Source of the DNA: Verrucomicrobiota bacterium
GTDB lineage: Bacteria; Verrucomicrobiota; Verrucomicrobiia; Limisphaerales; SIBE01
Assembly (NCBI GenBank): GCA_016190065.1
Contig: JACPRI010000421.1
Location: 1 to 41,020, forward strand
DNA: 41,020 bases
Reading direction: 5' to 3'
Shown here in pieces: positions 3,461 to 17,176 of this stretch. A program made the translations under genes and the position numbers. Within the stretch, counting starts at the first letter, position 1. The number at the start of each line of letters is the position of its first letter. The notes below the pieces were generated by a model, which saw nothing but the letters and a program-made list of their open reading frames with translations, did not search any database and was not told the origin of the DNA.

Positions 3461-4126
3461 CTATCGCTCACCGAGCGCACGTCTTAATCCTCGCGCCGAT
3501 TCAGCCAGGGAGCAGCGCAAGTAAAGCGCTGACTCTTCCGGACGACGGCTCAGCGGTTCTTCGTCGCCGGGCTCGACCTTTACGGTCACGAACACCGGGC
3601 CGGGGTGGTGGAGGATTTCCGGCAAAGTTCTCTCGTATTCTTGACGGTCGTCGAAGGTTTCAGCGCGCCGGAAACCTGCGGACTTGGCCAAGCCCGAGAA
3701 ATCCACCGACCGTGCGCCGGGTATCGGCTGGTTTCCTGTGATCTCGTAGGAGTCGTTTTGAACAACGAATAGAATCAGATTCCTCGCTCCGGCGTTGACG
3801 ATGGTCACCAACGTCCCCAGCGTCATGAGCATCGAACCGTCCCCATTCAGGCAAATGACTCGGCGCTGCGGTTGAGCGAGCGCGAGGCCCAGCGCGAAGT
3901 CCGCGGCGTGGCCCATGGCGCTGTCGGCCGAGGCGAAGTCGAGCGGGTGATTCGAGAAGCGCGCCCACGGACGAACGATCCCCATGGTGGTGATTACGAC
4001 TTGGTCCGTACGCAGCCGCGCCAGTGGCTCCAGCAGTTCGCGCTTGGTCAGGAAGGTCACCTCTTGATGCGAGCGCTTACTCGACGAGGGAATTCCGGGG
4101 ACCCAGAATGATTTGTCCCTGGGCAT
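3461..4126 (-). CDS. TPP-dependent 2-oxoacid decarboxylase, C-terminal (TPP-binding) subunit
   Basis: 221 residues matching the pyrophosphate-binding half of the phosphonopyruvate/sulfopyruvate decarboxylase family. Visible marks are SADSAMGHAADFALGLALA and the TPP/Mg motif NGDGSMLMTLGTL, closed by QND about 27 residues later, followed by YEITGNQP. The gene needs a partner carrying the pyrimidine-binding half, and that partner is encoded at 5228-5767 upstream on the same strand. The two halves are normally adjacent or fused; here a DUF4058 gene lies between them. The start at 4126 is supported by AAGGTGGAG four bases upstream. It gives a 25-residue N-terminal extension before TKRELLEPLARL. 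The substrate cannot be read from the sequence; sulfopyruvate, phosphonopyruvate or another 2-oxoacid are all possible. Confidence 0.85.
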   Translation of the reverse strand: MPRDKSFWVPGIPSSSKRSHQEVTFLTKRELLEPLARLRTDQVVITTMGIVRPWARFSNHPLDFASADSAMGHAADFALGLALAQPQRRVICLNGDGSMLMTLGTLVTIVNAGARNLILFVVQNDSYEITGNQPIPGARSVDFSGLAKSAGFRRAETFDDRQEYERTLPEILHHPGPVFVTVKVEPGDEEPLSRRPEESALYLRCSLAESARGLRRALGER

Positions 4127-4236: not shown

Positions 4237-5046
4237 TCAAGAGGAAAGAACGCGCACTCCGGCCTTCTGCAAACATTCCCCAAGCCAGAGGTTCTCCGGC
4301 TCGCTCAACGGCGGCGGGGGTGGTGCCGGGGCGTAGTTGAGCAGCCGTTCGTAGCCGACCAGATCAAAGCAGCCCTTCACTGCCGCCTGCAAATCCAGCG
4401 GCACATCCGGATCCGGACGCAGCAATGGCACAGGCACCGTGGGCAGCCGATGCGCCAGGGCTACGGGCCAGACTTCCGTGCGCGGACGACGATTCGTGCG
4501 GCTCAAGAAAACGTAATAGGACGCGGGCGGCAACTTCCCCTGCAACGCCAGCCGCTCGCCCTGTCGCAACAAATCGATCTCCAGCAGATGTGTTTGAGTC
4601 CGCAAGATCTCCAGGCGGCGCTGGTTATATTCCTGCGCGCCAGCCCCGCACTTGTTGGCCGGCGACAGAATCTCGATCAGAGTGACCAGGCGGCGCTGTG
4701 CGACATCGCGAATCTCCACGCTGAGCTGCGGCACTTCCTCCATTACTGGACTGGCCAATTCGACGGCTGGTTCGGCGACCGATCCTCCACCGGCTCCCTC
4801 GCGTAAGACGTCCGGTTCCTGAGCGTGCACCACGTGGATGTCCGGATAAATGACCCGCGACGTGTCCAGACCAACGATTCCCAGGTCCGCGCCTTGTAGG
4901 ACATAGCGCTTAGCCAGCAACGCGACATATTTCGGTGCAAGCAGCGGAATAAGTTGCGCGCTGATCTGATGGATGAGGCGGCCGTGAAACTCCTGCCACA
5001 TCTCGCCTTCGAGATACGGGTCCATGCCTGGAAATGGAGAGGCCAT
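4237..5046 (-). CDS. DUF4058 family protein
   Basis: A 269-residue protein of unknown function. The N-terminus MASPFPGMDPYLEGEMWQEF followed by HGRLIHQISAQLIPLLAPKY is the recognisable signature of DUF4058, a family known from cyanobacteria, planctomycetes and related bacteria. Further features are a run of acidic and charged residues, LVTLIEILSPANK and a conserved RLEILRTQTHLLEIDLLR block that recalls PD-(D/E)xK-like folds; that resemblance is only an impression. There is no signal peptide or membrane helix. The gene lies between the two halves of a TPP-dependent decarboxylase and is preceded by a palindromic repeat at 5079-5161, so it may be a later insertion into that operon. Confidence 0.85.
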   Translation of the reverse strand: MASPFPGMDPYLEGEMWQEFHGRLIHQISAQLIPLLAPKYVALLAKRYVLQGADLGIVGLDTSRVIYPDIHVVHAQEPDVLREGAGGGSVAEPAVELASPVMEEVPQLSVEIRDVAQRRLVTLIEILSPANKCGAGAQEYNQRRLEILRTQTHLLEIDLLRQGERLALQGKLPPASYYVFLSRTNRRPRTEVWPVALAHRLPTVPVPLLRPDPDVPLDLQAAVKGCFDLVGYERLLNYAPAPPPPPLSEPENLWLGECLQKAGVRVLSS

Positions 5047-5227: not shown

Positions 5228-5767
5228 TCACGTCGTGTCCCGCGTGATCAACACGGCCACGGGTTGTTCGAGGTTCTGTGCTTTGCGAAACGCTTCGGCA
5301 ATCCTGAGCACATCTGCGTCCGCGTGCAGGAAATCGTACGGGACGCCCCAGGCTTTCAAGGTCGGTTCAGTCAAAACGGCCACTGAATCCAGGCCAGCCT
5401 TACTGAGCAGCTCGGCATCCACGGTTTCGGGCGTAACTTTCAAGCCGCGGACCGCCAGCTTTGCGTAACCGCGATACGTGATGAGGCACAGCAACGGCAC
5501 GCGCATTCGCATGGCCGTGCCCCGGAGCGCATCTCCTGTTTCAAGCAAGCCGGTGTTCTGAATGAGAACCACCGGAACCTTGCCGCCCGTCCACAGCCCG
5601 GCCGCGATGGCGAAGGCTTCGCCCTCCCGTGTGACCAGGACCACTTGAATTCCTCCATCAGCCCAAAGCAAGTTCAGCAGCGCCTTCGACGAATTGTCCG
5701 GGACAGTGAGCACATGCGTCACGCCCAGTTTCTTCAGTTCGTCAAGAATTAGCCGCGCTTGAGCCAT
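5228..5767 (-). CDS. TPP-dependent 2-oxoacid decarboxylase, N-terminal (pyrimidine-binding) subunit
   Basis: 179 residues matching the N-terminal TPP-enzyme domain of the sulfopyruvate/phosphonopyruvate decarboxylase group. LKKLGVTHVLTVPDNSSK opens the domain. VTREGEAFAIAAGLW contains the conserved Glu that activates the thiazolium ylide. VVLIQNTGLLETGDALRG and MRVPLLCLITYRGY are typical of the family. It should form the active site together with the subunit at 3461-4126. It follows the Nramp-like transporter by 45 bases on the same strand, so transporter, alpha subunit, DUF4058 and beta subunit may share a message. The order suggests uptake and decarboxylation of one compound, but this is inference. 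Confidence 0.85.
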   Translation of the reverse strand: MAQARLILDELKKLGVTHVLTVPDNSSKALLNLLWADGGIQVVLVTREGEAFAIAAGLWTGGKVPVVLIQNTGLLETGDALRGTAMRMRVPLLCLITYRGYAKLAVRGLKVTPETVDAELLSKAGLDSVAVLTEPTLKAWGVPYDFLHADADVLRIAEAFRKAQNLEQPVAVLITRDTT

Positions 5768-5812: not shown

Positions 5813-7120
5813 TCAAGCGGCCTTCACAAGCTGCGCAATGGAGAGGATCGAGTTGACCGCCCCATAAATCGCCAGGGCAAACAACAGCGCCATCACGACG
5901 TTCTCCCACCAACGATTGCGATGTTCGAGCCCGATGTGACGCGCGCTGGCCGTGATCCACCACAAGCCGCCGGCGAGCACCGGGAGCAACACGACCTGGC
6001 CGCTGTTGGCCACCAGGGTTAAGGTGACAAAATCCGGCATCCCTGGGATCGTCCACACGAGAGGCGATGCCAGGCACCACACCACGATCCAGCGATACAG
6101 GGCATGCTGCCGGTAGTCGGCCGTGATCGGCCCCTGGCCCGCTTGCCAGCGCAACCAGGCGTGGCTGCCGAGATAAGCTAACCCGGCGGCGTGACCGAGG
6201 ATCGAGGTGTAAATCGCGGAAAAGATGCCCAGATAAAACAGCCAGCGCCCTCCTTCCCCCAGTACCGAACTCAACAATCGCGGCAGATCGTCTAATGCTT
6301 TGATCTGCTTGTCTGGGAAAAGCAATTCGGCGCCCAGCGTCCAGATGGCCAGGTTCAGCAGCATCATGACCGTCACCGCCAAGAGGAAGTCATAGAATTG
6401 CACCCGCCGGTATTGTGGTCCGCGCCATCCTTTGGCTTCGAGAAAGTAGGGATAAACCAGATTCATCAGAGAGCCGCCGATGGCGCCGATCATGGCCACA
6501 GAAACGAGAAGCGGATTGAATTTCCCGACCTGTCCGGGCATCTCTATTCGAGTCAGACCTTGCAGTACCCCCATGGGATTGAAGCCGACCCACACGGCGC
6601 AGCCAACAAACGAAATCGAGAGCAGCGCCAGGAAAACCTTGAAGGCCCATTCCAAGCGCTCGTACGACGGCCGGAAGATCAGAACCAGCGCGACCCCGTT
6701 GCAAACCAGGGCCCATTGCCAGGTCTCGCCGGCACGGAACAGATTGCGGCACGCCTCGCCCACACCCACGGTCATGTAGGATTCATAGACGTGACCCATG
6801 AGGATCGCGCCGACAAAAAGCGCCGGGGCATACCATGGATGCAGCCGGGCCAAACCGTCCAGGACGCCTTCGCCGTGTTGATTGCAGAGCTGGTAACGAG
6901 CAATGAGCGAGACGAAAACGAAGCGCATGAACACCGCCACCACCAGCACCCACATCAAGGAATAACCGTAATTGCTGCCCGCCACCCCCATATCGACGAT
7001 GTCTCCGGCGCCAAGCCACGTCAGCACGATCACGATGCCCGGCCCGAAAGAGCGCAGATACTCCATGAACGTGGTGGGGACTGGAGGCGCTGGAGATTGC
7101 GGAGAAGTTGTTTCGCTCAT
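5813..7120 (-). CDS. Nramp-related membrane transporter with altered metal site
   Basis: A 435-residue inner-membrane protein with about 11 hydrophobic helices. It has the Nramp-type opening SFGPGIVIVLTWLGAGDIVD, where FGPG at the start of helix 1 fits the family. However the metal-binding DPGN of helix 1 is replaced by GAGD, and the MPH of helix 6 is replaced by GSLMNLVYP in IGAIGGSLMNLVYPYFLEAK. Both changes remove known ligands for Mn/Fe, so the substrate is probably not a classical transition metal. The gene heads the minus-strand set with the TPP decarboxylase subunits, which may point to an organic or other cargo. The start at 7120 gives a short Pro-rich cytoplasmic tail before helix 1. 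Confidence 0.8.
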   Translation of the reverse strand: MSETTSPQSPAPPVPTTFMEYLRSFGPGIVIVLTWLGAGDIVDMGVAGSNYGYSLMWVLVVAVFMRFVFVSLIARYQLCNQHGEGVLDGLARLHPWYAPALFVGAILMGHVYESYMTVGVGEACRNLFRAGETWQWALVCNGVALVLIFRPSYERLEWAFKVFLALLSISFVGCAVWVGFNPMGVLQGLTRIEMPGQVGKFNPLLVSVAMIGAIGGSLMNLVYPYFLEAKGWRGPQYRRVQFYDFLLAVTVMMLLNLAIWTLGAELLFPDKQIKALDDLPRLLSSVLGEGGRWLFYLGIFSAIYTSILGHAAGLAYLGSHAWLRWQAGQGPITADYRQHALYRWIVVWCLASPLVWTIPGMPDFVTLTLVANSGQVVLLPVLAGGLWWITASARHIGLEHRNRWWENVVMALLFALAIYGAVNSILSIAQLVKAA

Positions 7121-7210: not shown

Positions 7211-9856
7211 TCATCGAACTCGTCCCGTGACCTTGAGCCGGTAAAACTTCTGTGGACTCCCTGAAATCGAATCGGTCACCGTGACATTCAGGGGCGCGAG
7301 TTTTGCGCTCACGTTTGTGAGGGTTGTCCAACTGGCCGCGACCAGAGAGTTGGAAAATTCCAGCGCGAGTTCGTAGGTCGCTTGAACGGTGAAGTTGAGG
7401 GTCACGTTATTGCCCACCAGATTGATCCGGTCGAGACGCGGCGGTTGCTCCGGAAGGGAGTTCACCGTGAGAACCGCCGCGTCGCTGGTCACCGAACCTG
7501 CCGGGTTGCTCACCACTGCGGAGTAGCTCCCGGCCTTGTCTGGCTGAACGTTCGTCAAAACCAAAGACGAACTGGTCGCGCCAGCCAAAGGATTGCCGTT
7601 GAATCGCCACTGATAAGTCAGCGGTTCGCTCCCGGTGGCGGAGACGGCTAAAGTCACCTGGGCGCCGGCATCGACGGTTTGAGTCTTGGGGTGCTGGGTG
7701 ATGGATGGGGGAACGACAGGACTGGGGACGGTGAGCGTAGCCACGGAGCTCGTGATTGAACCACTGGCATCGCTTACAACCACAGTGTAATTGCCGGCGT
7801 TACTCAACTGGACATTGTTCAGCGTGAATGTCGGATTCGTCGCACCGGTGATGTCAATGCCGTTGAATTTCCATTGGAACCGCAGGGCCCCGCCGCCCGT
7901 TGCTGCTGTTGTGAACGATGCGGTCCCTCCCACGGTGACCGTTTGGCTTTGAGGCTGCGCCGTGATGGAAAGAGGGAAATCGTCATTCAGAATCGTTCCC
8001 TTGGCTTCGCCGCGAGAGATCGAAGCATTCATTGGATTGGATAGCGTCACCGTGAAACTCTCGTCCGGTTCAATAGCCGCGTCGCCCATGACCTGAACCA
8101 GGATCGTCTTGGTCGTTTCTCCTGGATTGAAGGTCAACGTGCCGGAAACAGGCGCGTAATCGCTTCCGGGGATGGCCGTTTCGTTGATGGTGCCGAAGTC
8201 CACACGGACCGTCGCACCGCTCGCTACCGAGAGGCTGACGGTGAACACTGCATCCGTCGTTCCGCTGCCACCCTCAGTGACGCTGGCGTCCTGGATCGCT
8301 ATGTTTATGACTGGGGCGGGATCATCGTCGAGGATAGTTCCTTGTCCCCCGCTTCTGCCGATGAGGGCATTGGTGGGATTGCTCAGCCTGACTGAGAAGG
8401 TTTCATTGGGCTCGTTGAGATTGTCACCAATGAGCTGTACGGTGATTGCCTTGCTGGTCTCGCCAGGCTGGAAGGTCAATGTGCCTGATATTGAAACGTA
8501 GTCGTTCCCACCTGTAGCAGTGCCATCGATCGTCGCAAATGTTACCGAGACAACCTGGCTACTGGCCGCAGAAAGGGTGACGGTGAAAACAGCGTTGCCT
8601 GAATTGCTTTCGGTAATCGATACGTCGCTTATAGAAACGGAAGGTGGTGTGGGCTGATTGACCGTCAATGCAGCGGTTGAACTCGTCACCGAACCGGCCG
8701 CATTACTGACGACGACCGCATAGCTTCCCGCGTTGGCGGCCTGCACGTTGTTCAACGTCAGCGTCGGATTCGTCGCGCCGGCGAGATCGGTGTTATTGAA
8801 TTTCCACTGATAGCTCAACGGCTCTGTCCCCGTGGCCGTGACGGTAAACGTCACATTGGCTCCCGCTATCACGCTCTGGCTTTGAGGTTGAACCGTGATC
8901 GTCGGGGCGACAGTTGGATTGGTGACCGTGAGCGTGGCTGCCGAACTGGTCACGGAGCCACCCGCATTACTGACGGCGACCGTATAGCTTCCCGCGTTGG
9001 CGGCCTGCACGTTGTTCAACGTCAGCGTCGGATTGGTCGCGCCGGCCAAATCGGTGTTGTTGAATTTCCATTGATAGCTCAGAGGCTCGGTTCCCGTCGC
9101 TGTCACAGTGAATGTCGCCGAACCTCCGGCGACCACTGACTGGCTTTGCGGCTGACCCGTGATCGACGGCGGCGTGGCCTGGGCCGGCGCGGTGAACTGA
9201 ATGACCAAGGTCGGCCCGTTGCTCGCAGTTTCCCGCGACGCGAAGCGCCGGGCTGTGAGCGGCGTTCCTTCCGATTGGCTGATCAAGATCCAGCCGAAGT
9301 TGGAGGCCGGATTCGCAACCCAGGCTTGCACGTCGGCGACGAGGTCCGCCGTAGAAGCAAATGTGTAGGCATTCAGCCCGGAGATCAGCCGTGTCGCGCT
9401 GGCTTTGGCGGCGTAATCGCCGGGCGCGGCGGCGCCAGGCGCGCTCCAAGCGGTGTCAGGGAACACGCGCGCGTTCCAGGTCGATTCGCCCGCTGTCGCC
9501 GGGCTCCCGACTGTCCCGCCTTTGCTGCCTTCAGCCCAACTCTGCAAAACCCGGTGCAGTCCGAAAGTCGAAGGGACCGCGCCAGGCGGCGCTTTGCTGA
9601 CTCTGATCCTGAATTCTGCCGACGTAATCGTGGCGTTGGCGGGCACTTGGCCGGCCAAATCGAACCGGATCAAAGCGCGGCTCTTTGGACCGATCCGGAT
9701 TGTGCCCGACGCCAGATCCGTCGCGCCCAGGTTGTTGTCCGGGCCGTTTTCAAATAGCGAAGTATCGGCGGCGGGCTGCAGGGTCACCGTGGCGCCGAAG
9801 GCCAGCAGGGACGCGGCGTGAACAAGAATCGCCGTGAGCAGTGTTTTGGTGAGCAT
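7211..9856 (-). CDS. Secreted multi-domain protein: DNRLRE, Ig-like and Calx-beta repeats
   Basis: The ORF opens at 10078, but a signal peptide begins at internal methionines (MLTKTLLTAILVHAASLLAFGA). The ATG at 9856 has AGAGGA about 8 bases upstream, a better spacing than the ATG at 9862, giving about 881 residues. In order the protein has a DNRLRE-type domain (TVTLQPAADTSLFENGP), two nearly identical Ig-like domains (QPQSQSVVAGG... and QPQSQSVIAGA...), two Calx-beta domains (VSITESNSGNAVFTVTLS; ASVTEGGSGTTDAVFTV, each ending in GTILDDD/GTILNDD) and two more Ig-like domains. The C-terminal domain ends in GSPQKFYRLKV, common in Verrucomicrobia secreted proteins. No catalytic domain is visible. 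It is likely exported for adhesion or matrix binding. Confidence 0.88.
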   Translation of the reverse strand: MLTKTLLTAILVHAASLLAFGATVTLQPAADTSLFENGPDNNLGATDLASGTIRIGPKSRALIRFDLAGQVPANATITSAEFRIRVSKAPPGAVPSTFGLHRVLQSWAEGSKGGTVGSPATAGESTWNARVFPDTAWSAPGAAAPGDYAAKASATRLISGLNAYTFASTADLVADVQAWVANPASNFGWILISQSEGTPLTARRFASRETASNGPTLVIQFTAPAQATPPSITGQPQSQSVVAGGSATFTVTATGTEPLSYQWKFNNTDLAGATNPTLTLNNVQAANAGSYTVAVSNAGGSVTSSAATLTVTNPTVAPTITVQPQSQSVIAGANVTFTVTATGTEPLSYQWKFNNTDLAGATNPTLTLNNVQAANAGSYAVVVSNAAGSVTSSTAALTVNQPTPPSVSISDVSITESNSGNAVFTVTLSAASSQVVSVTFATIDGTATGGNDYVSISGTLTFQPGETSKAITVQLIGDNLNEPNETFSVRLSNPTNALIGRSGGQGTILDDDPAPVINIAIQDASVTEGGSGTTDAVFTVSLSVASGATVRVDFGTINETAIPGSDYAPVSGTLTFNPGETTKTILVQVMGDAAIEPDESFTVTLSNPMNASISRGEAKGTILNDDFPLSITAQPQSQTVTVGGTASFTTAATGGGALRFQWKFNGIDITGATNPTFTLNNVQLSNAGNYTVVVSDASGSITSSVATLTVPSPVVPPSITQHPKTQTVDAGAQVTLAVSATGSEPLTYQWRFNGNPLAGATSSSLVLTNVQPDKAGSYSAVVSNPAGSVTSDAAVLTVNSLPEQPPRLDRINLVGNNVTLNFTVQATYELALEFSNSLVAASWTTLTNVSAKLAPLNVTVTDSISGSPQKFYRLKVTGRVR
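8690..9169. repeat. Tandem duplication of an Ig-domain segment (264-base period)
   Basis: The segments around 8690-8905 and 8954-9169 are highly similar at DNA level; for example CTTCCCGCGTTGGCGGCCTG occurs at 8724 and 8988. The spacing of 264 bases equals 88 codons, one Ig-like module. This suggests recent duplication or gene conversion. Confidence 0.85.
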
Positions 9857-10353
9857 AGGCATTGTCCTCTGGGAACGCGCGGCTTCGGCCGGTGAACTCA
9901 CTCGAATCGCATCGCTTGAGTCCGCTTCCAGGCCGGTCTGCATCGCGGATACAATCATGGAAATTGCGCTCGTGCAAGCGGCGGAAACCTCTTTGTCTGT
10001 AAGGCAACTCTGCACTACGAATAATCTTGGGAAAAGCATTGGAACCACGGATTTCAGGGCATCCCTTTCCCTGGCCAACGCCTGGTTGTTGTCCGTTGGG
10101 TCCGAATTGGTTCATTCTCTGAGAGTCTTGGGAGTGCCGCCGGGTTCCAGGAAATTCATCCAAGTCATGCTCATGATTGGGCAAAAAATGCAAAGACCTG
10201 GGCAATTAACGGAGAGCAACCGCAGGTGATCCGCCTATAATAGCAAGCAGTAAGCCTTAACCCAAGCCTGCCCGCGAACTGAGGGAGGCCGGTTTCGGCA
10301 GCAAGGCTCTGGGAATTTGAGCGCCACGGCGAACCAATCCGAATTCAGCACTT
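9857..10353. other. Gene-free stretch between divergent genes
   Basis: No convincing coding region. It holds the in-frame upstream extension of the Ig/Calx-beta ORF (9857-10078), which lacks signal-peptide or domain character and probably is leader, and then the divergent region before the gene at 10354. I see no clear promoter or repeat. Confidence 0.5.
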
Positions 10354-11211: not shown

Positions 11212-12117
11212 ATGCATGCGAATCCCAACCATTCCATGAACCCTTGTCCGAATTCCTTCGCTGAATTCAGATTCCTGGCCACCGTCAACACCCTTCGCAA
11301 ATGTCCATTGTTCGCGGGTCTATCCGTCGAGACCCAGCGGGAGATTGCCCAGATCAGCCTCGTCAAATCGCTGACCAAAGGCGATTACCTGTTCCACGAG
11401 GGAGCGCCCGTGCACGGCTTTTATGTGGTGCAGAGCGGCGCCATCAAAGTTCACCGCGTCAATCTGAGCGGCAAAGAACAGGTCATTCACGTGTTCCGGG
11501 CCAATGAAGTCCTCGGGGAAGAGGCACTCCTTTCGGATTCCGGACACCTTGCCGATGCCAGCGCGGCGGAATCATCGCGGGTGTTGACGATCCGGAAACC
11601 GGAATTCCTCGCGTTGATGAAACGCCGACCGGAACTGGTCATCAGCGTGGTGAAATCCGTGGGCGATCAATTCCGGCTGTTGCTCGATTTGTTGGAGGAC
11701 TTGACGCTGAAGGACGTCCCGACGCGGCTGGCCAATTGGCTGATCCAACACTGTCCAAACCCGGACAGTCACGATCCCTGCACCATTGAGCTGCCCATGG
11801 CCAAGCGCCTGCTCGCTTCCGAACTCGGCACCGTCAGCGAAACGTTCTCGCGGACGTTGGCCCGATTTCGGGCCGAGAAACTGCTGACGATCGAAGGCCG
11901 GGTCGTGACTTTGCTTTGTCCGCAAAAACTGCTCCGGTTCGTGCGCGGCAGCTTTGGCCTGGATCGGTCCTCTGCCGAGGTCGTGCCCTGGAAAAACGCC
12001 GCGAGTTCGCCTCGTCCGGCCGATCTCCTTTCGCTGTCCAGCAACGGCACCCGGACCGCGGCCCGAAAGGCGAACGGTGCGGTTGCCGATTGGGCGATGG
12101 CCGCTTTGCCATCCTGA
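11212..12117 (+). CDS. Crp/Fnr family transcription regulator
   Basis: A 301-residue DNA-binding regulator. Residues about 26-145 form a cyclic-nucleotide-binding-like sensor domain: TLRKCPLFAGLSVETQREIA, then KGDYLFHEGAPVHGFYVVQS and ANEVLGEEALLSDSG. A long dimer helix (VGDQFRLLLDLLEDLTLKDV) leads to a winged helix with recognition region AKRLLASELGTVSETFSRTL. The Cys residues are not arranged as in Fnr [4Fe-4S] sensors, so a heme, NO or nucleotide signal is possible but not shown. About 60 low-complexity residues follow the winged helix, which is longer than usual. The gene lies 79 bases upstream of hemE on the same strand, so it likely controls heme synthesis. ATG 11236 is an alternative start. 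Confidence 0.93.
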   Translation: MHANPNHSMNPCPNSFAEFRFLATVNTLRKCPLFAGLSVETQREIAQISLVKSLTKGDYLFHEGAPVHGFYVVQSGAIKVHRVNLSGKEQVIHVFRANEVLGEEALLSDSGHLADASAAESSRVLTIRKPEFLALMKRRPELVISVVKSVGDQFRLLLDLLEDLTLKDVPTRLANWLIQHCPNPDSHDPCTIELPMAKRLLASELGTVSETFSRTLARFRAEKLLTIEGRVVTLLCPQKLLRFVRGSFGLDRSSAEVVPWKNAASSPRPADLLSLSSNGTRTAARKANGAVADWAMAALPS

Positions 12118-12196
12118 ACGCCCTAACCAAATCATGCGCAGTGAAAGCCAAGAAAGGGAGAGTGCGCCGACCGGAGATCGATCAGACTCAACATCG

Positions 12197-13327
12197 ATGA
12201 ACAACATCGATCTCCCCGCCCTCGCGGCGGTTGACAGCCATTCGGAAGAGTGCGCTGAGATTTGGAAGCGGTGCTTTTCCAGTCTGCACCTGACGCCTCG
12301 CCAGCGGTTCCTCAACGCTTGCCATGGTTACCCGGTGGATCGCACGCCGCTCTGGCTCATGCGCCAGGCGGGCCGCGTCTTGCCGGAATATCGCGCCTTG
12401 AAGGAGAAGCATTCCTTTCTCGACCTGGTGCAAACGCCCGAGCTCGCCGCTGAAGTCACCTTGCAGCCGATCCGCCGCTTTGGCTTCGATGCCGCCATCC
12501 TTTTCAGTGATATTCTCGTCGTCGCCGAAGCCATGGGACAAGCCTACCGCTTCCGCGATCAAGGCGGCATTGAAATGGCCTTCTCCATTCGTTCCGAATC
12601 CGACATCGATCGGCTGGAGCCTGGCGCCGTGGTCGAGCGCCTGCAATACGTCGCGCGAGCGATCCCGCTGATCCAGGCCGGACTGGGCGGTCAAACGGCT
12701 TTGCTCGGATTCGCCGGGTCGCCGTGGACGCTGGCCAATTTCATGTTGGAAGGCGGCAGCGCCAGAGAATGCACCAAAGCCAAGGCGTTGTTCTACTCCG
12801 ATCCCGCGCTGTTTTCGAGACTGCTGGAGAAACTCACGGTGGCCGTCACTCAGTTCCTCCAGTTGCAAATCGACGCCGGCGTGGACGGCGTCCAGATTTT
12901 CGACAGCCTGGGTGGGCTTCTGGCGGCGGAGACGTTTGGCTCGGCCTCCGCGCGATGGATCACAAAGATTATCGCCTCCTTGCCGAGCCAAATCCCGGTG
13001 ATCGTTTTTTCCAAGGGCACACACGGCAACTGGGACGTGCTGGCCCGGACTGGCGCGCAGGTGCTCAGCATCGATTGGACCGTCCGGTTGTCTGAGGCGC
13101 GCGCCCGTTTGCCCAAACGCATCGGTCTGCAAGGGAACCTGGACCCGTTCATTCTGACGACGCGGCCGGAGATCGTCGCCGCGGAAGCGCGCCGCATCCT
13201 GGACGAAATGCGGGAAGAGAACGGGTTCATTTTCAATCTGGGCCATGGCGTTCCTCCAAGCGCTCCGCTCGAGAATCTCGAAAGTCTGGTGGCCACGGTG
13301 CAGAATTTTCGGCCTGGATCACTATGA
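12197..13327 (+). CDS. hemE: Uroporphyrinogen decarboxylase
   Basis: Removes four acetate carboxyls from uroporphyrinogen III to give coproporphyrinogen III in heme synthesis. The family start TPRQRFLNACHGYPVDRTPL is followed by the signature WLMRQAGRVLPEYR. FSDILVVAEAMG and the C-terminal GHGVPPSAPLENLESLVATV are also typical. The ORF track begins at 11954 inside the regulator gene; ATG 12197 gives 376 residues, about 30 longer at the N-terminus than most relatives, and ATG 12134 is another option. The stop overlaps the hemN start by ATGA. Confidence 0.95.
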   Translation: MNNIDLPALAAVDSHSEECAEIWKRCFSSLHLTPRQRFLNACHGYPVDRTPLWLMRQAGRVLPEYRALKEKHSFLDLVQTPELAAEVTLQPIRRFGFDAAILFSDILVVAEAMGQAYRFRDQGGIEMAFSIRSESDIDRLEPGAVVERLQYVARAIPLIQAGLGGQTALLGFAGSPWTLANFMLEGGSARECTKAKALFYSDPALFSRLLEKLTVAVTQFLQLQIDAGVDGVQIFDSLGGLLAAETFGSASARWITKIIASLPSQIPVIVFSKGTHGNWDVLARTGAQVLSIDWTVRLSEARARLPKRIGLQGNLDPFILTTRPEIVAAEARRILDEMREENGFIFNLGHGVPPSAPLENLESLVATVQNFRPGSL

Positions 13328-14688
13328 ACGTCGATCTGGATCTCGTCCGGAAATATTCCGTTCCCGGACCGCGCTACACGTCGTATCCGCCGGCGACGCA
13401 GTTCAAGGATGTGCTTTCGAAGCCGGAATTGCTCGACCGGATTCGGCATTCCCAACGGAGCGCCGCCGATCTCTCGCTCTACTTTCATCTGCCGTTTTGC
13501 CGATCGCTGTGCTGGTTTTGCGGCTGCACCACGGTCATCACAACCGCGCAGAACAAAAGCGCCGTTTACCTGGAATACCTCCGAAAGGAACTGGATTTGA
13601 TCACCCCGTTGATCCAGCCGAAACGCCAGGTCGTGCAGCTTCATTTCGGAGGCGGGACTCCAACTTTCCTCCTGCCGGACGAAATCCGCGCGCTGGGTGG
13701 CCTGATTCATTCGCGGTTCAAGGTCGCCCGCGACGTCGAAGCCGGCGTCGAGATCGATCCCCGCACGGTCACGCCCGATCACCTGCAAGCCTTGCGCGAA
13801 GCCCGATTCAACCGTGTGTCGCTCGGCGTGCAGGACAACGACCCGGTCGTCCAGACGGCCGTTCACCGTATTCAACCCGCCGAACGGACGCGCCGGGTGG
13901 TGGGCTGGATTCGAGAGGCCGGGTTCGCCTCACTGAACATCGATTTGATTTACGGGTTGCCGTTTCAAACCGTGGAAAGCTTCGGAAAAACTTTGGACCA
14001 GATCATGGCGTTGGCGCCGGATCGGCTGGCGGTGTTCAGCTACGCGCACGTGCCTTGGATCAAGCCGGCCCAGCGCGTTTTCAAGGAAGGAAACCTTCCG
14101 ACGGCCGAAGTGAAGCTCCAACTCCTCAAGCTCAGCATCGAGAAGCTGACCGCGGCCGGATATGTGTACATCGGCATGGATCATTTCGCGCGCGCCGACG
14201 ACGAACTGGCCGTGGCCCAGCGCCAAAAGAAACTGCAGCGGAATTTCCAGGGCTACAGCACCCGGGCCGGAACCAACCTGTTTGCGTTCGGCCTGTCGTC
14301 CATTTCGCAGGCCGACGGCATTTACTGGCAAAACAAGAAGGACCTCCCCGGCTATTACGCGTCGCTGGATCAAAGCGATCTTCCCTTTGGAAAGAGCTAC
14401 TTCCTGAGCGAGGACGACAAGATCCGGCGCCAGACCATCATGAGGTTGATGTGCGATTTCGGGCTGGACTTCGCGGCGATGTCGCAGGCGCTGGGGATCG
14501 ATTTTCCGGAATATTTCGCCTCCGAACTGGCGTCGCTCAGCGACCTGGAAGCGGACGGCCTGGTGGAAACCACGGCGAGCCAGTTGTCGGTTACAACTCT
14601 GGGGCGGCTTTTGATCCGCAACCTCGCCATGCGCTTTGATGCGTATCTCCCCAAAGACCCCGAACGGCGTTTCTCAAAGACCATATGA
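13324..14688 (+). CDS. hemN: Oxygen-independent coproporphyrinogen III oxidase
   Basis: A radical SAM enzyme that turns coproporphyrinogen III into protoporphyrinogen IX without oxygen. It has 454 residues, like E. coli HemN. PGPRYTSYPPA near the start and the cluster HLPFCRSLCWFCGC (C59, C63, C66 and the fourth Cys C68) are the true HemN pattern, unlike HemW, which lacks the fourth Cys. HFGGGTPTFL is the SAM-binding GGGTP. The C-terminal HemN domain carries FQGYSTRAGTNLFAFGLSSI. It overlaps both neighbours by four bases (ATGA), so translation is probably coupled. Confidence 0.96.
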   Translation: MNVDLDLVRKYSVPGPRYTSYPPATQFKDVLSKPELLDRIRHSQRSAADLSLYFHLPFCRSLCWFCGCTTVITTAQNKSAVYLEYLRKELDLITPLIQPKRQVVQLHFGGGTPTFLLPDEIRALGGLIHSRFKVARDVEAGVEIDPRTVTPDHLQALREARFNRVSLGVQDNDPVVQTAVHRIQPAERTRRVVGWIREAGFASLNIDLIYGLPFQTVESFGKTLDQIMALAPDRLAVFSYAHVPWIKPAQRVFKEGNLPTAEVKLQLLKLSIEKLTAAGYVYIGMDHFARADDELAVAQRQKKLQRNFQGYSTRAGTNLFAFGLSSISQADGIYWQNKKDLPGYYASLDQSDLPFGKSYFLSEDDKIRRQTIMRLMCDFGLDFAAMSQALGIDFPEYFASELASLSDLEADGLVETTASQLSVTTLGRLLIRNLAMRFDAYLPKDPERRFSKTI

Positions 14689-16115
14689 AATCCCTCGCAA
14701 TCATCGGCGGCGGCATCACCGGTTTGACCGCCGCGTTCCGACTGGGACGAAAGAACATTCCTGTGACCCTTTACGAAGCGGGACCGCGCGTCGGCGGCGT
14801 CATCGCGACCGAGCGGCGCGACGGCTACCTGGCGGAGTCCGGGCCGAATTCGATTCTCGAGACGTCCCCGCTCATCACTTCCCTGGTCCGAGATCTGGGG
14901 GTTGAGGAGCGCCGCTTGAATCCAGCCCCCGAAGCGAAGAAACGTTACGTCGTCCGCAATGGCCGGCCCATTGCCTTGCCTCAGTCGCCGTTGGGCTTTT
15001 TCACCACGCCGCTCTTCTCGATCGGCGCAAAGCTGCGTCTGTTGGCCGAGCCGTTCGTCCGTCGCGCTCCCGAAGGGCGTGAAGAAACTATCGCCGAATT
15101 TGTCACCCGGAGAATCGGGAACGAATTTTTGGATTACGCGATCAATCCCTTTGTCGCCGGCGTGTACGCCGGCAACCCGGCCCGGCTTTCCGTGCGGCAT
15201 GCGTTCCCCAAACTCTACGCCCTGGAACAGAAATATGGCTCCTTGATTCTGGGCCAGTTTCTCGGCGCGCGCGAGCGCCGGCGGCGCGCGGAAGTTTCCA
15301 AGCAAGCGGCCAAAATGTTTTCCTTCGACGACGGCTTGCAGGTGCTCACGGACACGCTCAGCGGCCGACTGGCGGATCGCATCCGGTTCTCCACGCCCGT
15401 CGTTCGATTCCAACAGACGCGCGACGGCTGGAAGGTCACGCTCAAACGCGAAGGCCGCGAAGAAACACACGACCACGCTGCCGTCATTTTCACGGCGCCG
15501 GTCCATCGGTTGCCGGAGGTGCAATTGCAGTCCGAGCGGTATCTGAATTGGGCGCCGCTCTCGCAAATCAATTATCCGCCGGTGGCCAGCGTCGCGTTGG
15601 GATTCCGCCGCGGCGAGGTGGCTCATCCGCTGGACGGATTCGGCGTCCTCATCCCCGAAAAGGAACGATTCAACATTCTGGGAACGCTTTTCTCGTCGTC
15701 GCTGTTCCCGAATCGCGCTCCCGCCGGGCACGTCACCTTGACCAGCTTTTTGGGCGGCACCCGCCATCCGGAGCTGGCGTTGCGCGGCGCGGAGGAATTG
15801 GTGCAAATCACCCTCCAGGATTTGCGCGTTTTGTTGGGTGTCACGGGGCAGCCCACTTTTCAGCACATCGCCCTCTTCCCAAAAGCCATCCCACAATACG
15901 AAGTCGGCTACGGGCGGTTCGAGGAACTGATGCGGGAAGTCGAGGAGAAGGCTCCGGGCTTTTTCCTCGCCGGCAATTATCGCCGCGGCATTTCAATGGG
16001 CGATTCGATCGTTTCAGGCCATCACGTCGCCGAATCCGCCGAGCGCCATTGGACGGCAGCGCTGCCGAAGGAAGCGATTCGAGTCCCGAAATTCTCCGCG
16101 GAGCTCGCCGCATGA
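14685..16115 (+). CDS. hemY: Protoporphyrinogen oxidase (HemY type)
   Basis: An FAD enzyme that oxidises protoporphyrinogen IX to protoporphyrin IX, using oxygen in known members. It has 476 residues. The Rossmann motif IIGGGITGLTAAFRL starts at residue 6, followed by VTLYEAGPRVGGVIAT. DGYLAESGPNSI and the C-terminal FAD motif LAGNYRRGISMGDSIVSGHH are typical of HemY/PPOX. Standing next to the oxygen-independent HemN, it suggests that the pathway must work at changing oxygen levels, or that this enzyme can use another acceptor. It overlaps hemN and hemH by ATGA on both sides. Confidence 0.95.
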   Translation: MKSLAIIGGGITGLTAAFRLGRKNIPVTLYEAGPRVGGVIATERRDGYLAESGPNSILETSPLITSLVRDLGVEERRLNPAPEAKKRYVVRNGRPIALPQSPLGFFTTPLFSIGAKLRLLAEPFVRRAPEGREETIAEFVTRRIGNEFLDYAINPFVAGVYAGNPARLSVRHAFPKLYALEQKYGSLILGQFLGARERRRRAEVSKQAAKMFSFDDGLQVLTDTLSGRLADRIRFSTPVVRFQQTRDGWKVTLKREGREETHDHAAVIFTAPVHRLPEVQLQSERYLNWAPLSQINYPPVASVALGFRRGEVAHPLDGFGVLIPEKERFNILGTLFSSSLFPNRAPAGHVTLTSFLGGTRHPELALRGAEELVQITLQDLRVLLGVTGQPTFQHIALFPKAIPQYEVGYGRFEELMREVEEKAPGFFLAGNYRRGISMGDSIVSGHHVAESAERHWTAALPKEAIRVPKFSAELAA

Positions 16116-17176
16116 CGAGACAGGGAGTTTTGCTCATCAATCTCGGATCGCCGGATTCGCCCAGCGTCCGGGACGTGCGCCGCTATCTCCGGGAGTTTCT
16201 CATGGACGGCCGCGTGCTCGATGCGCCGTATCCGGTGCGGTTCTTCGTGGTGAACTGCTGCATCCTGCCCCGGCGCCCGAGAGCGTCTGCCGAAGCGTAT
16301 AAGAAGATTTGGGGGCCGAACGGCTCACCGCTGGTGGAAACGAGCCGGAAAGTGCAAGCCCAGTTGCAGGAGCGCGTCTCCGTGCCGGTCGAACTCGCGA
16401 TGCGCTACCAGAATCCGCCGGTCGATGGCGCGATCCACAACCTGCGCGCCCAGGGCGTTGAGGAGTTGCTGGTGATCCCGCTTTTCCCGCACTACGCCAT
16501 GTCCAGCTACGAAACGGCAGTGGAACAGGTGCGGGAAACGGTGAAACGATTGGCGCCGCAGATGGAATTGACCGTGGTGCCGCCTTATTATGACGCGCCC
16601 GAATACATCGAGGCTTTGGTCGCCAGCGCGGGCGCTTACCTGGAGCGCGGATACGATCATCTCTTGTTCAGCTTTCACGGATTGCCCGAGCGGCATCTGC
16701 GCAAATCCGATCCGACCGGCTGCCACTGCCTCAAGGCCACGAATTGCTGCGCTCTCCCAAGTCCCGCGCATCGGACGTGCTATCGGGCGCAGTGTCTGAA
16801 GACGGTCGCGGCGTTCACACCACGGGCTGGCGTCGCGAAGTACTCAATCGCGTTTCAATCCCGCCTGGGCAAGGAGCCCTGGCTTCAACCCTACGCCGAC
16901 CAGGAAATTGTCCGTTTGGCCCGGAGCGGCGTGCAGCGATTGCTCGTGATTTGTCCGGCGTTTGTCGCGGATTGCCTGGAAACCATCGAAGAGATGGGGA
17001 TGCGCGGCCGCGAACTTTTTCTGGAGGCCGGCGGCCGCGAATTCACGCTCATCCCGTGCTTGAACGAGCATCCGTTGTGGATCGAAGCGCTGGAACAAAT
17101 GGTTCGGCGGTTCGCGGACGCACCCTGCGAAGATGTTGAAGCGGGTCACCCGATTGAAGAACCGCTCAACTCATAA
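16112..17176 (+). CDS. hemH: Ferrochelatase with internal Cys-rich segment
   Basis: Inserts Fe2+ into protoporphyrin IX, the last step to protoheme. The ORF track starts inside hemY at 15548; ATG 16112 begins the family sequence GVLLINLGSPDSPSVRDVRR and overlaps the hemY stop, giving 354 residues. The catalytic His is H189 in FSFHGLPERH, and CPAFVADCLETIEE is the C-terminal block. Between them lies GCHCLKATNCC plus CYRAQC, with six Cys at 204, 206, 212, 213, 223 and 228. An internal Cys segment of this kind is reported to hold a [2Fe-2S] cluster in the Myxococcus-type ferrochelatases, so a cluster is likely here too. The direct protoheme route, rather than the coproheme route, is supported by the neighbours. 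Confidence 0.96.
   Translation: MTRQGVLLINLGSPDSPSVRDVRRYLREFLMDGRVLDAPYPVRFFVVNCCILPRRPRASAEAYKKIWGPNGSPLVETSRKVQAQLQERVSVPVELAMRYQNPPVDGAIHNLRAQGVEELLVIPLFPHYAMSSYETAVEQVRETVKRLAPQMELTVVPPYYDAPEYIEALVASAGAYLERGYDHLLFSFHGLPERHLRKSDPTGCHCLKATNCCALPSPAHRTCYRAQCLKTVAAFTPRAGVAKYSIAFQSRLGKEPWLQPYADQEIVRLARSGVQRLLVICPAFVADCLETIEEMGMRGRELFLEAGGREFTLIPCLNEHPLWIEALEQMVRRFADAPCEDVEAGHPIEEPLNS

Follow-up and report, generated by a model that had tools for sequence, protein, structure and literature searches.

An Nramp-fold transporter with altered motifs in TM1 and TM6

What does a transporter carry if it has the fold of an Nramp divalent metal transporter without the residues that bind the metal? This question is raised by a gene in a 41,020-nucleotide stretch of DNA from a Verrucomicrobiota bacterium, the whole of which we refer to as the window. 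An earlier note on this DNA had described the gene as Nramp-like, with GAGD instead of DPGN in helix 1 and no MPH in helix 6, and had proposed from these changes and from an adjacent TPP-dependent decarboxylase that its cargo may differ and may be an organic acid or another new substrate.

The gene does occupy positions 5813..7120 of the window, runs from 7120 to 5813 as a minus-strand reading frame, and encodes a 435-amino acid protein that is Nramp-related (PF01566) by its reading frame, Pfam match, fold and phylogeny. The PF01566 match is above the cut-off (E=9.4e-30), and NCBIfam returned the general Nramp model. We built an AlphaFold2 (AF2) model using a 34-sequence alignment of the protein and its homologues (mean pLDDT 86.7, pTM 0.87). 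The top PDB matches to this model were all Nramps (BfraNramp, DraNramp and EleNRMT, the last, PDB 7qia, with a TM-score of 0.79 over the query), followed by a YcsG model in 16th place, whereas amino-acid APC transporters came in at rank 27 and beyond. The predicted structure is that of an Nramp fold, as the earlier note had supposed.

Alignment to DraNramp bore out both motif changes. In TM1, D56, P57, G58 and N59 of DraNramp correspond to G37, A38, G39 and D40, so that DPGN is replaced by GAGD (7001..7012, minus strand); in TM6, V229, M230, P231 and H232 correspond to G215, G216, S217 and L218, which places the unwound motif G215-G216-S217 at 6470..6478 (minus strand) and a leucine at the position of the histidine of MPH. 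In the proton path of TM3, E134 is replaced by M116, and D131 by E113 at a position that is variable within the clade. The structure prediction proposed as a check in the earlier note places breaks in helix 1 at residues 36-37 and in helix 6 at residues 215-217, exactly at the changed motifs. With the canonical metal and proton residues gone, the canonical transition metals are improbable cargoes, in keeping with the suggestion that the cargo may differ.

The replacement motifs of TM1 and TM6 are near-invariant across homologues from several phyla, with W-L-G-[AS]-G-D in TM1 and I-G-A-[IV]-G-G-[ST] in TM6 as the clade signature. Residues G37, G39, D40, G212, A213, G216, N220, Y223 and P224 do not vary across the 34 aligned sequences, so the motif change is neither chance nor a sequencing error. 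As dN/dS between the window gene and its nearest homologue is ~0.05, we conclude that the changed site is a fixed property of this family under strong purifying selection.

The window protein belongs to an almost unstudied branch of Nramp-related proteins

To place the protein, we built a tree of 59 PF01566 proteins by maximum likelihood, with YcsG itself left out. The window protein is in a direct clade of 13 sequences (support 100/99) nested in a clade of 20 (100/98), and no characterised member was found in the latter. Canonical Nramps (100/100) and NRMTs (100/99) each form their own group, with the window protein outside both. The phylogeny thus sets it apart, and not in a clade already shown to move Mn, Fe or Mg with the same residues, which is the placement that the earlier note had named as contrary to its reading.

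Canonical MntH/Nramp proteins resemble the window protein in overall fold but differ from it in the metal site and proton path, in clade and in the regulators nearby; of the canonical Nramp/SLC11 features it has the PF01566 fold, and DPGN, MPH, TM3 D131/E134 and the canonical grouping are absent. EleNRMT, which moves Mg and Mn through an altered site (PMC8806188, PMC12873925), likewise combines an Nramp fold with a changed site, but it keeps the TM1 aspartate (DAGG), has AP in TM6 and falls in a separate clade. The NRMT features, an aspartate in TM1 (DAGG or DDPSG-like) and [A/S]P in TM6, are absent from the window protein.

The closest described class is found among the Nramp-related proteins, which Ray, Berry and Gaudet 2026 (PMC12873925) present as paraphyletic and without DPGN/MPH or the proton path. 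In the same paper, these groups are called uncharacterised except for EleNRMT and MntG, a hypothesised Mn importer included in a group named 'G-motif 3'. We read 'G-motif' as denoting the glycine that replaces the TM1 aspartate. The window protein has this glycine and, like the G-motif proteins, has the PF01566 fold and lacks the DPGN and MPH motifs and the proton path. It is therefore a new member of a large, recognised but almost unstudied Nramp branch, and the G-motif class itself has already been described.

Published cargoes of Nramp-related proteins disagree. YcsG/MntG of B. subtilis (PMC10448178) and MumT (PMC5050338) were reported to raise cellular Mn, whereas PxpT of C. glutamicum, which is 50% identical to YcsG, is required for growth on 5-oxoproline in a complementable manner, with a metal role still possible (PMC13274462). 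PxpT and YcsG are likewise Nramp-family members from catabolic operons, and PxpT is needed for 5-oxoproline use, but they are very distant from the window protein. On a Lactiplantibacillus plantarum plasmid (L086 1942-3912), the gene right after pxpA encodes a very divergent member of the Nramp family, likely a PxpT homologue, with GPGF in TM1 where the window protein has GAGD. This homologue joined our tree on a long branch (length 3.06) at an uncertain position, and a PDB sequence search with it, aimed at YcsG, gave no match.

A scan for homologues in one genome per species returned 38 loci, chiefly from Verrucomicrobiota, Planctomycetota and Acidobacteriota, with some from Alphaproteobacteria, Bacillota and Actinomycetota. 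The gene is rare within its phylum; among 388 genomes sampled from the phylum, scores >300 bits were found only in the window's genome and for one match of 37% identity. In the direct clade, sequences from Verrucomicrobiota and Acidobacteriota are intermixed, a branching pattern that makes horizontal transfer likely. We looked for viral carriage and found none.

Metal-dependent regulators are associated with canonical loci

We compared the occurrence of DtxR/MntR-type regulator genes within ~4 kb of canonical and non-canonical PF01566 genes. Such a regulator was found at 8 of 16 canonical DPGN loci of the phylum and at none of the 64 non-canonical loci (16 from the same phylum, 35 from the homologue scan and 13 from plasmids). 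The difference is significant overall (Fisher P = 4e-7) and for the 16 versus 16 loci of the same phylum (P = 0.002), with the qualification that the DtxR queries were taken from canonical loci and could favour those somewhat, and that related loci are not independent. As the homologue-scan loci are mostly longer, a regulator was likelier to be seen in them.

The window's genome also encodes a canonical MntH with DPGN and MPH. PF01566 matches occur in this genome on contigs C96, C106, C379 and C445, and comprise the canonical MntH and several others, some of them truncated.

Association with the TPP decarboxylase is local and loose

Upstream of the transporter is a gene for an Ig/Calx-beta repeat protein (7211..10078, minus strand), identified by Pfam and by a sister locus (L099). 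The next gene downstream, after a gap of 45 bp, encodes the N-terminal (alpha) subunit of a TPP enzyme (5228..5767, minus strand); it is followed by a gene for a DUF4058 protein identified by Pfam (4237..5046, minus strand) and by one for the C-terminal (beta) subunit (3461..4126, minus strand), which is phosphonopyruvate/sulfopyruvate decarboxylase-like by profile matches and homologues. Judged from these homologues, the true start of beta is probably ~25 codons inside the reading frame. Alpha is related to the sulfopyruvate and phosphonopyruvate decarboxylases but falls under their cut-offs, and we rejected an assignment of alpha and beta to these enzymes proper, since the scores are far under the curated cut-offs (TIGR03845, 78.6 versus 147.95 bits; TIGR03846, 105.8 versus 221.5; TIGR03297, 112.1 versus 312.5).

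The order transporter-alpha-beta was found in two genomes, the window's and one other, both of one genus. In G007, from the same genus, the genes for the Ig/Calx-beta protein, alpha, DUF4058, beta and pilin follow one another with no transporter; the Ig/Calx-beta homologue abuts alpha directly in this locus (L099, G007:C283), which equals the window locus except for the one gene that was either inserted or lost between the sister species. The transporter and alpha/beta are on separate contigs in G004, from another genus of the family, and G002 has the transporter without a close homologue of alpha or beta. The DUF4058 gene is present between alpha and beta in the window and in G007, and is absent from this position in G006 (L103) and G004 (L100). 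As the gene layouts of G007, G004 and G002 break the linkage, we rejected the decarboxylase as a conserved partner and consider the pair a local, loose association. The decarboxylase is therefore a weaker substrate clue than the earlier note had supposed, and in the window's genome the transporter may or may not carry the compound on which this neighbouring enzyme acts.

Among the genes of the window, no pxpABC was found beside the transporter; the sole full-length pxpA match of the genome is on another contig, with a partial match on a third. Elsewhere in the window (11954-17176, plus strand), reading frames that follow a Crp-type regulator were read by eye as a haem biosynthesis run, comprising uroporphyrinogen decarboxylase, a HemN-like protein, protoporphyrinogen oxidase and a ferrochelatase-like protein.

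Organic-acid genes adjoin a sizeable minority of relatives

The gene-neighbour survey that the earlier note had called for gave a divided result, as the decarboxylase link was not kept and organic-acid enzymes did recur beside relatives, adjoining a sizeable minority of them by raw occurrence. Within the 20-sequence clade, homologues on plasmids of Mycobacterium dioxanotrophicus and Rhodococcus adjoin genes for an FAD-linked (glycolate-oxidase-like) oxidase, a CoA transferase and an FCD-type regulator, and the Rhodococcus plasmid, whose homologue is WP_206004770, also has further FAD/Fe-S oxidase genes and, further off, glyoxylate carboligase. The oxidase genes adjoining the homologues of an actinobacterial MAG and of Pseudonocardia dioxanivorans pPSED01 are from one blast cluster. 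On a Croceibacterium plasmid, the homologue (L069 7926-9290) lies between genes for a four-carbon acid sugar kinase and a pectate lyase in a pectin/acid-sugar locus, with PdxA and a dihydrodipicolinate-synthase-family gene close by. A 3-hydroxyisobutyrate-type dehydrogenase is also among the neighbours within this clade.

In the direct clade, adjoining genes encode HpcH/HpaI aldolase (L014, L015), a mandelate-racemase-type dehydratase (L019), a class-III aminotransferase (L016), a DAO oxidoreductase (L022) and MlrC (L021, L022). This clade also has unrelated neighbours (DUF1501, EamA, BNR and IPP transferase); many of its loci have no organic-acid gene, and the neighbours vary by locus. More distant Nramp-related members lie beside 3-oxoacid CoA-transferase and thiolase, beside a dihydrodipicolinate-synthase-family gene, and beside an acid-sugar kinase, an aldolase and a dehydrogenase. 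In a tally of neighbouring Pfam families at non-canonical versus canonical loci, none of the 25 families listed occurred more than 2 times at non-canonical loci, and for this comparison we relied on the DtxR count.

The window protein is probably an importer of a small organic anion

We propose that the window gene probably encodes an Nramp-fold (LeuT-fold) secondary importer of a small organic anion rather than of Mn or Fe. This proposal is based on the loss of the metal and proton residues, the invariance of the motifs that replace them, the separate clade, the lack of a metal regulator and the organic-acid neighbours, and on the requirement for PxpT, a distant PF01566-type relative, in growth on 5-oxoproline. 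The cargo could be a hydroxy-, keto- or sugar-acid, or a similar carboxylate. In amino-acid transporters of the APC superfamily, the G-X-G turn of TM1 exposes backbone amides for the carboxylate. By analogy, two turns, GAG in TM1 and GGS in TM6, may expose backbone amides that bind a carboxylate, the invariant Asp40 would bind the coupling cation or a proton, and the rocking-bundle cycle of Nramps would be retained. An organic-acid cargo is thus plausible from the neighbourhoods of relatives and from the PxpT precedent, though not as first argued from the decarboxylase. The distance of PxpT/YcsG, the Mn reports for YcsG/MntG and MumT and the variation among neighbours count against it. A search of the literature for Nramp-like carriers of sugar acids or lactate led to work on mouse Nramp1 rather than on a carrier of this type.

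The chief alternative is that a divalent cation (Mn, Mg, Ca or other) is still moved through a rebuilt site, for example one of Asp40, Asn220 and backbone carbonyls, with the organic-acid neighbours being enzymes that need this metal or being there by chance. The Nramp fold, the invariance of D40 and N220, the altered site of EleNRMT and the Mn phenotypes of YcsG/MntG and MumT are consistent with such a cargo. We nevertheless consider it unlikely, as no canonical or NRMT ligand is kept, none of the 64 loci has a nearby MntR/DtxR gene, a canonical MntH is already encoded in the genome, and several relatives adjoin substrate-specific catabolic enzymes. Import of a nitrogen-containing or other organic solute (an amino acid, lactam or phosphonate) in place of a simple carboxylate is less probable still. 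PxpT carries a lactam acid, Brevibacterium homologues have a phosphonate-binding protein, a DAO oxidoreductase and a GntR regulator nearby, and an amidase and RidA adjoin a more distant G-motif member, but the neighbours of the actinobacterial and Croceibacterium homologues, which belong to the same clade as the window protein, point to nitrogen-free acids. That the gene encodes a dead transporter, or is a relic that has persisted in the locus, as its absence from the same place in G007 might suggest, is very improbable given its full length and invariant site motifs and is already contradicted by its purifying selection.

Beyond small-anion import by the window protein, we suggest with more doubt that a large part of the Nramp-related half of PF01566 could be carboxylate importers with an APC-type GXG site, the window clade being one substrate branch. 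If true, the carrier would first have moved organic anions, and metal transport would have arisen from it later as a specialisation. This half of the family is currently annotated 'Nramp family divalent metal transporter', and calling such genes metal transporters is unsafe. Candidate substrates can be named and directly tested because clade homologues are in well-defined catabolic operons, of the glycolate-oxidase type on actinobacterial plasmids and of the pectin/acid-sugar type in Croceibacterium. On plasmids of ether/dioxane-degrading actinobacteria and relatives (L067, L068, L039, L040), the homologue occurs with an FAD-linked oxidase, and in 2 of these loci with a CoA transferase and FCD regulator; the homologue is thus a candidate for the uptake of glycolate or of hydroxyethoxyacetate. 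On a Deinococcus taeanensis plasmid (L088 3846-5783), a split TPP-enzyme pair is followed by PxpA in an acyl-CoA-type operon.
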